The notes beneath the pieces were generated by a model that ran no database searches, was not told where the DNA came from, and saw only the letters and a program-made list of their open reading frames with translations. From Botryococcus braunii (taxonomy: Eukaryota > Chlorophyta > Trebouxiophyceae), in contig KV908643.1 in assembly GCA_002005505.1 (NCBI GenBank), positions 23,664 through 87,663 on the forward strand: a stretch of DNA of 64,000 nucleotides. Direction: 5' to 3'. A program made the translations under genes and the position numbers. Below, piece by piece: positions 44,031-64,000 of this stretch. The first letter of the stretch is position 1, and the number at the start of each line of letters is the position of its first letter.

Positions 44031-44189
44031 ATATATGTATATAAGGTATATATTTAAGTTCGCTTAGTTCGCCACAGTTCGCCCAAATATATCTATAAGT
44101 TCGCCGGCACCCTCAACCGGCGTAAATATATATAACAACTCTCGTCTTTAAGCCCACTCCAGGGCTGCCTACCTCCATGGACAGGAATG

Positions 44190-44373
44190 GTGACCCATGA
44201 CCCCATCGCCGGGATGGTGACCCATGACCATCCCTACATGAGTATCAATGGTCAATGGACAATGGTGTTTTTAAAAATATTTAATGATTACCCTAAAAAT
44301 TATTTTACTACTTTTTCTACCTGAATTAATCATTATCCTTAGAATTATCACCATACCTCGTGATTTACGGGCC
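44190..44373 (+). repeat. 183-bp-type repeat, left copy, forward
   Basis: Related to the four-unit array at 60590-61322. Shared parts are GGATGGTGACC, CAATGGACAATGGTGTTT, TTTAATGATTACCCTAAAAA and the end TGATTTACGGG. It differs mostly in the AATTAATCATTATCC segment, which is shared with the inverted copy at 44752-44900 rather than with the right-hand array. Confidence 0.8.
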
Positions 44374-44374
44374 C

Positions 44375-44693
44375 GACTCCGCCGATCCGGAGGAGGCTTA
44401 AAGAATTCGACGGTACTATATAGTTAGACCTCATCCCCTCCATGTGCCCCACATGACCCAGACTCCGCCGATCCGGAGGAGGCTTAAAGAATTCGACGGT
44501 ACTATATAGTTAGACCTCATCCCCTCCATGTGCCCCACATGACCCAGACTCCGCCGATCCGGAGGAGGCTTAAAGAATTCGCCGTACTATATATTTAGGC
44601 CTCATCCCCTCCATGTGCCCCACATGACCCAGACTCCGCCGATCCGGAGGAGGCTTAAAGAATTCGCCGTACTATATATTTAGGCCTCCTCGT
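44375..44693 (+). repeat. 86-bp tandem repeat array (3.7 units) with promoter-like core
   Basis: Units start GACTCCGCCGATCCGGAGG at 44375, 44461, 44547 and 44632. Each contains GGCTTAAAGAATTCG and then GTACTATATA. The same two boxes recur before provirus genes, for example TTTAAGTAGTATATAG upstream of 59525. Two further partial versions (GGCTTAAAGAAGAAG...GTAGTATATGG near 44955; GGCTTAAAGGAGAGG near 45039) lead up to the first gene. The array may be a promoter cluster or a replication/terminal element. Confidence 0.85.
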
Positions 44694-44751
44694 GAGACAC
44701 GGGGGGGCACGACGAGGGCACGACGAGGGCACGAAGGGCTTAAAGCTTCCG

Positions 44752-44900
44752 TCGTAAATCATATGGGTTGCTATAATTTCTAAGGATGATGATTAATTCA
44801 GGTAGAAAAAGTAGTCAAATAATTTTTAGGGTAATCATTAAAAATTTTGGAAAGACCATTGTCCATTGTCCATTGATACTCATGGAGGGGGTGGTCTCAT
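44752..44900 (-). repeat. 183-bp-type repeat, left copy, inverted
   Basis: Reverse complement of 44215-44373, with which it could form a stem enclosing the 86-bp array. It ends CATGGAGGGGGTGGTCTC, matching the CCACCCCCTCCATG part of the right-hand array. Confidence 0.8.
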
Positions 44901-45066
44901 AGTCTCATAGATCCCTGACCAGGGGTGTGGGGGGTTTTGTAGAGCCATGGAGGGGGCTTAAAGAAGAAGAGCGGTAGTATATGGGGGGTTCTTGCACAGC
45001 CGTGCCGGCGATGGGGTGGCCGTGCCGGGGATTTAGAGGCTTAAAGGAGAGGAGCGTGGGTAGTTT

Positions 45067-62218: not shown

Positions 62219-62245
62219 ACAATTAACGCATCCTGTTCATATAGT

Positions 62246-62689
62246 ATGGATGACCCGTATGCCGTGTTGGGTCTCAACAAGCACCGCTCAACAAGGGCAG
62301 ATATAAAGCGTCGATACAAAGAACTTGTTCTCATGTATCACCCTGATAAGAATCCACCAGAAAAGAAAGAAGAGATGGAACAAAAGTTTAGAACTATACA
62401 GGAGGCGTATGAAGCCCTCCGTGGTAAGAAAGATCGCCCTCAAAAGACATACACAGACGAGTGGGACGAGATGACAGACATGCTCAAAGACCTCTTGTCT
62501 CAACATGCCAAGGGAAAGTTCCCGTCATATCAACCATGGCGTAATTGTAAAACGAAGCAACCATCCCCCTCCCCCTCCTGGTCATCGTCCTCTGAGAGCG
62601 AAAGTGAGCTGGACAGTGATGATGAAAGTGTCGAGTCGTCGTCATCGTCCTCGACTTCATACTCAATGTGGTCAGATGATGAAGAATGA
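62246..62689 (+). CDS. J-domain (DnaJ-like) protein, 147 residues
   Basis: J domain at the N-terminus: DDPYAVLGLNK, then YHPDKNP with the HPD motif at 32-34 and KFRTIQEAYEAL. The second half is not a DnaJ G/F or zinc region but a Ser/Asp/Glu-rich tail (~107-147). J proteins stimulate Hsp70 ATPase; a viral one could recruit host Hsp70 for capsid assembly or disassembly. The start follows CATATAGT, with GGCTTAAAC 35 nt upstream. Confidence 0.85.
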   Translation: MDDPYAVLGLNKHRSTRADIKRRYKELVLMYHPDKNPPEKKEEMEQKFRTIQEAYEALRGKKDRPQKTYTDEWDEMTDMLKDLLSQHAKGKFPSYQPWRNCKTKQPSPSPSWSSSSESESELDSDDESVESSSSSSTSYSMWSDDEE

Positions 62690-62696
62690 TTACTCT

Positions 62697-62831
62697 CTAA
62701 CTCCATTCAACGATATGGTCCCCCTTGTTAATACAGATTTCAAATGGTGTACGTGTTTTTTTCTTCCGCGTCCGACCCTTCTTATTCTCTTGTGGAGTTG
62801 CATTATCTTTAAGCTCCTTCTGTTCATCCAT
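62697..62831 (-). CDS. small charged protein, 44 residues
   Basis: ATG behind TACTATTGTATGTTTAATAC, similar to the box before the capsid gene. Encodes a Lys/Arg/Glu-rich N-terminus (MDEQKELKDN, then KKGRTRKKKTRT) and ends INKGDHIVEWS at TAG. Convergent with the DnaJ gene, 7-nt gap. Might be a DNA-binding virion peptide; support is position and promoter-like box. Confidence 0.4.
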   Translation of the reverse strand: MDEQKELKDNATPQENKKGRTRKKKTRTPFEICINKGDHIVEWS

Positions 62832-62873
62832 GTATTAAACATACAATAGTAATATATCAAAGATACGCGTAGG

Positions 62874-63080
62874 TCACTTCTTGATATCCCAACCGCCAGG
62901 TGCATTTACATCACGGTATATCCCATACTTTTCTACCGTTTTCTTGTTCGGTGCTTTGATTTCTCCATTTCGTAATTTATATAGATATTTTGATCCATTT
63001 ACCTTCTCTTTGTTCTCGGGCTTTTGTTGATATTCGATGGTCTTTTGAATGTACGCTCTCTTCTGTTCCTCTGTCTTATT
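62874..63080 (-). other. 68-codon open block without ATG, in frame after integrase stop
   Basis: Directly after the integrase TAA (63081-63083) the same frame stays open to TGA 62874-62876. It reads NKTEEQKRAYIQKTIEYQQK, then KVNGSKYLYKLRNGEIKAP and a C-terminal RDVNAPGGWDIKK. It has no ATG, so it is either a C-terminal extension of the integrase cut by TAA or translated by readthrough. The residue pattern looks coding. Confidence 0.45.
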
Positions 63081-64000
63081 TTAATAATGTGAAGGTCGGT
63101 CCTTGAAGTTATTGCCCGACCAACGAGCTTGTATGACTTGTTCAACAGCAGCCGGTGCTCTACTGGTTTTCGTGTGTGCCTCATGTGGGATAAACCCCTC
63201 CTGGGATGCCTCGACCTCGCCCGTGGGAATACCCCAGTCCCTCTTAACCTCATCTGGTAAATTTTGTATTTTCGCGTATGTTTGCTGGAGGACGACAAGC
63301 GACGTCCCCATTTTCTTTGCGAGTTTCTCTCTTTCCTGTGTAAACGGGTGCTTCTTGAAAAACATGATGGTGTATATGTGTCTAAAGAAATTCACACTCA
63401 TGTCCAAAGATGCGAGCAGACGGTGGTACTCTGTCTCGCCCATCGGTGTATCGGGCGACTCAATCTTGCTCAACAGGAATGTCCTGGGATAAGCTTGTAA
63501 GCTCTCCTTGACTATGTTGACGACTCTAGAGCTCAGTTTAACCTCCTTGTCATACGGTTCTGCAAGTTTGTGCGGTTTATCTTTCTTTCTATTGTATAAC
63601 AGCATCGTCCCCCCATCATCGTTGATCAACAAGTAACGCCCATTCCTCTTGTTTTCTGGAGGCATCTCGGATACAATCTTCATGTTCGATATGTCAGACC
63701 TCAATGGAGGGTGCATGAGGTTCAACGCCATGGCGAGGTGTTGGAAGTTCTTCTTCACATCATGTCCATAGTCTTCTAACGCTCTAATTTTCGCGTCAAT
63801 CTCACTCCTCGGATTGAGTACGAAGAGTTGTACCATGCCCTTTGATAGTGTTTTGTCCTTATCAATTTCCTTGGAGAGTGCTGACACCTTGCCTTCCTTA
63901 CCCCCATACCTCTTGTATATGTCATCCATCCCAAACTCCTTTGCGAGTGTCCCCAACAGTGCATACCATGACTTTTTAGAGTTCAGGGCATAGTTTTTAC
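63081..64000 (-). CDS. tyrosine recombinase / integrase, C-terminal part (5' end beyond window)
   Basis: The frame is open to the window's last base, so the N-terminus is missing. The core-binding segment (NSKKSWYALLGTLAKEFG) precedes the catalytic domain: Arg in HPPLRSDISNMKI, the beta-hairpin RYLLINDDGG...LLYNRKKDKPH, then FFRHIY and the nucleophile candidate Tyr in LQQTYAKI. The FFRHIY block is characteristic of tyrosine recombinases of PLVs and protist transposons. His of H-x-x-R is Asn here, and the usual GHS is GTS, so some catalytic positions vary. It would integrate or excise the provirus; its place near one end fits. Confidence 0.7.
   Translation of the reverse strand, partial: KNYALNSKKSWYALLGTLAKEFGMDDIYKRYGGKEGKVSALSKEIDKDKTLSKGMVQLFVLNPRSEIDAKIRALEDYGHDVKKNFQHLAMALNLMHPPLRSDISNMKIVSEMPPENKRNGRYLLINDDGGTMLLYNRKKDKPHKLAEPYDKEVKLSSRVVNIVKESLQAYPRTFLLSKIESPDTPMGETEYHRLLASLDMSVNFFRHIYTIMFFKKHPFTQEREKLAKKMGTSLVVLQQTYAKIQNLPDEVKRDWGIPTGEVEASQEGFIPHEAHTKTSRAPAAVEQVIQARWSGNNFKDRPSHY

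Follow-up and report, generated by a model that had tools for sequence, protein, structure and literature searches.

We analysed 64,000 nucleotides of the Botryococcus braunii genome (contig KV908643.1; C356:23664-87663 in a 176.1-Mb genome of 989 contigs), a stretch that we call the window. Its last 20 kb had been predicted from the sequence to hold a lesioned but largely complete polinton-like provirus with unusual cargo. We found both terminal inverted repeats (TIRs) of a polinton-like virus (PLV), whose positions set its extent from 44049 to window-equivalent 65305 and its size at 21,257 bp, together with host-type DNA on both sides and five further loci of its major capsid protein (MCP) gene in the same genome, all of which bear the prediction out. 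The left end had been placed to within 18 bases (44049 vs 44031), whereas the right end lies 1305 bases past the window. The unusual part of the element is a gene that the prediction merely listed: its first gene, which encodes a tandem array of C2H2 zinc fingers joined to a nuclease domain.

The predicted structure of this nuclease domain (AlphaFold 2, pLDDT 91.5) matched PD-(D/E)XK-type nucleases, and R2 chains ranked near the top in Foldseek. We found 79 relatives of the protein. In the nuclease alignment, E12, D47, and H66 are present in 51 of 51 rows and D78 in 49 of 51, residues that we read from the sequence as the putative EDxHD motif. The number of fingers is variable: eight in the window protein, six in the sibling element on contig C32, and up to 10 among the relatives. 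Only three nuclease loci were found in the genome, none of them near the MCP copies on contigs C174 and C612. A phage collection gave no relative of the nuclease or the MCP. Among the papers listed in a literature search of titles and abstract openings, mainly open-access and no proof of absence, there was no natural viral zinc-finger nuclease. One relative, of 474 aa, lies at 9164-10588 of a contig with 64-69% GC that is binned as an Opitutaceae metagenome-assembled genome (L001). The finger gene was the only one of five open reading frames (ORFs) scanned there to have a Pfam match, and since the other four had none, the contig may come from a eukaryotic virus or an alga.

Change in the array concentrates on the residues that contact DNA (positions -1, 2, 3, and 6, with a finger pattern that admits longer Cys spacing): among fingers of one protein, between sibling elements, and between proteins whose nucleases are almost identical. 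When fingers 2-7 of the window protein were compared with one another, the contact positions held 43 of the 74 nonsynonymous and three of the 44 synonymous pair differences. When every four-position set of 17 finger positions was scored, a form of the test that sidesteps the shifted linker of finger 7, only 6 of 2380 sets reached 43; in a 29-position form, 112 of 23751 reached the observed value. The contact positions were also more variable than six non-contact ones in 46 of the 50 proteins with at least four fingers (means 0.801 vs 0.570). Fifteen protein pairs have nucleases that are at least 94% identical, and nine of these were compared, six having fewer than two fingers to pair. Contact positions differed more than non-contact positions in eight of the nine, even under the alignment with the best whole-finger identity, and four of the nine had no contact quartet in common. 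P0067 and P0072, for example, have nucleases that are 96% identical, carry 10 and 7 fingers, and share zero quartets; P0085 and P0086 have identical nucleases and nearly the same fingers.

The same contrast was seen between the window and C32 elements, whose nucleases are 94% identical, with 0.029 nonsynonymous (pN) and 0.219 synonymous (pS) differences per site. In three fingers (the first, the penultimate, and the last), whose position allows pairing between the eight- and six-finger arrays, pN was 0.366 at contact positions (10.5/28.7 sites) and 0.058 in the rest of the finger. Fisher tests on rounded counts gave p 5.1e-5 for contact against non-contact positions and p 7.4e-9 for contact positions against the nuclease. 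When every one of the six C32 fingers was mapped to its best-case partner, contact pN was 0.301 vs 0.068, with a contact pS of 0.258.

Table. Features of the provirus, in window positions (aa, amino acids; percentages are identities to counterparts on other contigs)
Feature	Position	Strand	Basis or remark
Left TIR	44049-45062	.	inverted partner at window-equivalent 64206-65305
86-bp tandem repeat within TIR	44375-44688	.	TRF, 3.7 copies, 98%
Zinc-finger nuclease, 8 C2H2 fingers and EDxHD/Vsr-like nuclease domain	45067-46299	+	Pfam C2H2
Probable minor capsid (penton) protein	46269-47189	+	adjoins MCP; kept in other copies
MCP, 425 aa	47384-48661	+	double-jelly-roll predicted model
D12/Dam N6-adenine methylase, split by frame change	49019-49844	+	Pfam MethyltransfD12 on both halves
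Conserved protein, 145 aa, function not assigned	49817-50254	-	C32 94%, C174 79%, C612 77%, C622 40%
DNA-packaging-ATPase-like gene, one in-frame stop	50438-51301	-	three-frame translation
Unknown protein	51329-52369	-	C32 99%, C174 37%
Class-3-lipase-like protein	52381-52992	-	GHSLG motif; weak Lipase_3 and esterase/lipase matches; C174 67%
Long fibre protein, 1672 aa	53005-58023	-	C-terminal S74 chaperone, ten-fold 23-aa repeat
Charged low-complexity ORF opposite fibre start	57863-58408	+	ORF only; C32 91% over 98 aa
C2H2 finger protein	58421-58819	-	Pfam
RING-like protein	58844-59188	-	in-frame stop; C32 counterpart is a longer 231-aa ORF
Unknown protein (predicted as PAS-like)	59525-60103	+	C32 98%; C622 74% over 80 aa
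Exchanged module, overall	60081-62703	.	no alignment of at least 150 bp to C32
Module ORF	60081-60650	-	within exchanged module
183-bp repeat array	60596-61321	.	within exchanged module
Module C2H2 gene	61454-62218	+	within exchanged module
J-domain gene	62246-62689	+	within exchanged module; Pfam DnaJ E 1.5e-17
Tyrosine-recombinase-like integrase, continuing past window edge	63081-64000	-	motifs PPLRSD, NFFRH, QQTYAKI

Extending the contig to the right, a check proposed with the original prediction, revealed the second terminal repeat and no consistent target duplication (GTA on the left and right of the window copy, GTA and TAC in C32). All 1014 aligned bases of the left repeat match the right one, which has one additional 86-base block, the length of the tandem unit. 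The 86-bp unit is present in the C32 terminal repeats too, and TATATTTAAGTTCGC is common to the termini of both copies. As in PLVs, TIRs thus bound an element of 14-40 kb. The left flank has ORFs for copia-type polyproteins as well as microsatellites. In the 10 kb to the right of the window, four of the five ORFs of at least 120 aa are microsatellite translations and none looks viral by eye; the following 20 kb include a stretch that is partly N, and the ORFs of at least 150 aa in the final 10 kb are mostly simple-sequence translations. The GC content is 0.449 at 44031-64000 vs 0.489 at 1-43935. The genome gave 35 matches to the chlorophyll a/b-binding family, all above the family's cut-off and many spanning just part of the domain, as exons would. 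Cyanobacteria have such proteins too, as a Synechococcus control showed, but the size of the genome and its copia-type elements favour a photosynthetic eukaryote as host. PF02972, tried as a mark of a cryptophyte host, gave no match, nor did it give one in the controls. A large-virus insertion of more than 100 kb, the outcome against which the prediction had been set, is rejected, as the terminal repeats close the element and no viral-looking ORF was seen in the 10 kb beyond the window.

Three lesions were seen: one in-frame stop in the ATPase-like gene, a frame change in the Dam gene, and a shortened RING-like ORF. Because the terminal repeats are identical save for one unit, these may have arisen recently, may predate the insertion, or may be errors of sequencing. 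A 183-bp repeat lies at the left end in both orientations (44194-44371 and 44753-44896) and, as four tandem copies, in the array at the exchanged module; the copies are 98-99% alike, and the same pieces occur inside the right terminal repeat. We considered an inverted pair of these repeats (44742-44896/61177-61331) as the terminal repeats and rejected it, the real ends lying outside the pair. Elsewhere in the window, two identical direct-repeat pairs surround copia-type ORFs (27041-27733/39851-40543, 693 bp; 31436-31803/37426-37793, 368 bp) and look like one young copia element inside another. An Rfam scan of the window gave 0 matches.

Genes were assigned with family models (20 ORFs against Pfam, 10 sequences each against PHROGs and NCBIfam, and 6 against PADLOC) and with predicted folds, which upheld the predicted MCP, S74 fibre, DnaJ protein, D12/Dam methylase, and C2H2 array with its nuclease domain. 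The MCP has, on its predicted fold, the double jelly roll typical of PLVs. It has relatives at 90% and 82% identity, with which it falls in a supported clade of a tree of its own family, and a search with the single sequence also reached the 596-aa protein P0018 (E 4.7e-5), a usual length for PLV capsids. For the predicted packaging ATPase we recognised by eye an ATPase-like gene, with FIGTRGGGKS as Walker A and HIVMDD as Walker B motif and no family-model match in the Pfam scan; its C-terminal part is present on three of the four other contigs examined (C32 99%, C174 84%, C622 61%). The predicted penton is kept on all four (51-94% identity) and had no Pfam or PHROG match. For the integrase, the three motifs in the table, which we take to be those of tyrosine recombinases, agree with the prediction, whereas no Pfam integrase family matched either the window part or the full C32 form (434-435 aa); it has eight matches in its own genome. 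A PDB sequence search returned nothing meaningful for the MCP, the MCP profile, the integrase, or the lipase. In a viral-contig collection from which records near the window's genome may have been omitted, we found no confirmed relative for the MCP, the MCP alignment, P0009, P0014, the ATPase part, the nuclease alignment, the integrase, or the minor capsid protein.

The cargo genes were assigned with varying strength. The two Dam halves matched MethyltransfD12 at E 2e-18 and 2.6e-10, and the fibre matched Peptidase_S74 at E 4.5e-9. The fibre repeat is encoded by a 69-bp unit (23 aa; 55403-56091, 10.0 copies, 98% alike), and since a similar 69-bp array occurs in C32, fibre length may differ between copies. 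The predicted lipase has its motif, with family matches below cut-off (Lipase_3 E 0.054; NCBIfam SA1320 E 1.1e-6 at 27.4 bits, where the cut-off is 230) and a weak PHROG esterase/lipase match (E 0.0072). The predicted RING protein likewise stayed below the Pfam cut-off (best E 7.4e-5, 22.9 bits vs 27). The PAS-like label was not sustained, no PAS family being matched in Pfam, PHROGs, NCBIfam, or PADLOC. The ORF opposite the fibre start had no credible family in the Pfam scan and may not be a gene.

The element belongs to a small family of copies, which we compared over fetched stretches, so that a gene not found may sit outside them. MCP matches lie on C356 (100%), C32 (98%), C174 (88% and 87%), C612 (87%), and C622 (57%), the last carrying a stop and falling in two matches. 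The minor-capsid candidate, the MCP, and the 145-aa protein are present on all four other contigs. The C32 copy spans 575432-596218, and the alignment of its two terminal repeats has 958 identities, 18 mismatches, and 17 gap positions. It lacks the Dam gene (an alignment gap), whose first half had one other match in the genome, a broken one at 45% on C355. The two siblings differ by modules, with cargo swapped at one defined place: window positions 60078-62703 have no alignment of at least 150 bp to C32, which carries there a 781-aa primase-helicase-like gene (D5_N E 3.7e-17) of which no trace was found in the window. The fetched stretches of other copies showed no J protein, and the one in the window had a single weak match elsewhere in the genome. 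The sibling pair thus shows cargo exchange in PLVs, a primase-helicase against J-domain and finger genes. Relatives of the primase-helicase (40-63% identity) and of the integrase (30-59%) occur across C355, C603, C295, C769, and C174. As the MCP of the window's family was not found on the first four of these contigs, their relatives suggest that the genome contains further PLV copies of a different kind.

On balance, we think it probable that this PLV provirus, one of a small family of copies, carries in its first gene a natural, retargeting zinc-finger nuclease that acts as a site-specific cutter. The tandem C2H2 array would read a long DNA site, and the C-terminal EDxHD/Vsr-like domain of PD-(D/E)XK type would cut there. 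As a general rule a C2H2 finger reads 3 bp, so eight fingers would read a site of ~24 bp, with the cut falling beside it. The array would gain, lose, and re-code fingers at contact residues with the nuclease conserved. Because arrays are re-coded while the nuclease is conserved, lineages would cut different sites; and with changing arrays on unchanging cutters, the DNA that they act on would have to change or differ among lineages. That partner could be a rival virus or a sibling element, and an empty homing site would fit as well. Most likely the nuclease would serve to cut specific sites in other DNA of the cell, for homing of its own gene or for interference. More tentatively, small DNA viruses of protists may run a fast-retargeting zinc-finger nuclease under PRDM9-like selection against changing rival or sibling DNA, a wider proposal that we hold as possible rather than probable.

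The case for selection to retarget has limits. Contact pN does not clearly exceed what neutrality would predict, and the 12 to 24 contact codons are too few to tell positive selection from relaxed constraint. The pair P0080/P0084 shows the opposite trend to the other pairs, and the contrast weakens when all compared pairs of at least 62% identity are taken (contact 0.71-0.85, non-contact 0.37-0.77). The level of contact pN would suit an ordinary PLV whose nuclease is a free-standing homing endonuclease with an array that drifts after fixation, contact variation then reflecting relaxed constraint; its predicted catalytic domain does resemble a phage EDxHD homing enzyme, as described in excerpts of PMC3943268. 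However, the nuclease and the non-contact finger positions are constrained (pN 0.029 and 0.058 against a pS of about 0.22) and the frame is open, so the finger nuclease is apparently still used. That well-formed fingers differ between almost identical nucleases also fits selection for change better than decay, and we regard drift as a serious but unlikely account.

The nuclease might instead serve the element's own integration or packaging by cutting its own termini or target, with the fingers following change in the terminal repeats. Its gene starts 5 bases past the end of the left repeat (45062 and 45067), and the window and C32 repeats differ in sequence and unit number. Nevertheless, since a tyrosine-recombinase-like gene is present for integration and the three nuclease loci found all lie away from the C174 and C612 capsid genes, integration is the less likely task, and we give this account little credence. 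Equally improbable is an affinity with mriyaviruses instead of PLVs, considered on the MCP fold ranking. According to excerpts of PMC11253617, mriyaviruses measure 35-45 kb and encode an HUH endonuclease, VLTF3, and RuvC. The present element is 21.3 kb long and has TIRs and the recombinase-like gene; none of those three proteins, which are divergent, was among the Pfam matches of the 20 ORFs, and the single-sequence MCP search also reached P0018.

As a PLV with both ends and modular cargo, the element is of a known kind, and the finger nuclease is its new part. Like PLVs with tyrosine recombinases, as described in excerpts of PMC12220804, PMC10675990, and PMC4642659, it combines a size of 14-40 kb and TIRs with a double-jelly-roll MCP, an ATPase-like gene, an S74 fibre, a lipase-like protein, a Dam methylase, several copies per genome and, in the sibling, a primase-helicase. 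The claim of unusual cargo found little support. S74 fibres, lipases, and Dam methylases have been reported in PLVs (excerpts of PMC12220804 and PMC4642659), and PLVs with tyrosine recombinases and primase-helicases are also in print (excerpts of PMC12220804, PMC4642659, PMC7805220, PMC10675990, and PMC10120064). In cryptophyte PLVs, by the excerpted account of PMC12220804, methylases are rare and lipases absent. The terms "zinc finger" and "DnaJ" are absent from the main texts of PMC12220804 and PMC4642659, and in the portions of the PLV literature covered we found no J protein reported in a PLV. Compared with the PLVs in these excerpts, the element differs in its compact 425-aa MCP, in its finger nuclease and J-domain gene, and in that we recognised neither polymerase nor helicase in the window copy.

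Zinc-finger nucleases are familiar chiefly as engineered tools. If the favoured reading of a natural, retargeting nuclease is true, this wide family, with up to 10 fingers and with almost identical cutters that differ in contact residues, would document in nature the re-coding of finger specificity. It would also offer a handle on conflict in which small viruses, giant viruses, and their algal hosts take part, and two siblings within one genome make retargeting testable. The predicted catalytic fold and the pattern of E, D, H, and D resemble those of Vsr and of EDxHD homing endonucleases such as I-Bth0305I (excerpts of PMC3943268). In contrast with the EDxHD enzymes in that source, the window nuclease would be targeted by a long tandem C2H2 array and not by phage DNA-binding regions. 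Its fingers set it beside two further systems. The R2 retrotransposon protein carries a zinc finger and a restriction-like endonuclease, and like it the finger nuclease is a single natural protein that has both zinc fingers and a cutter of PD-(D/E)XK type; unlike R2, it has no reverse transcriptase, and its fingers number up to 10 and vary. In PRDM9 and KRAB zinc-finger proteins, too, the fingers stand in tandem and change is fastest at the residues that touch DNA, but their effector is a methyltransferase or repressor in an animal, whereas here it would be a viral nuclease.

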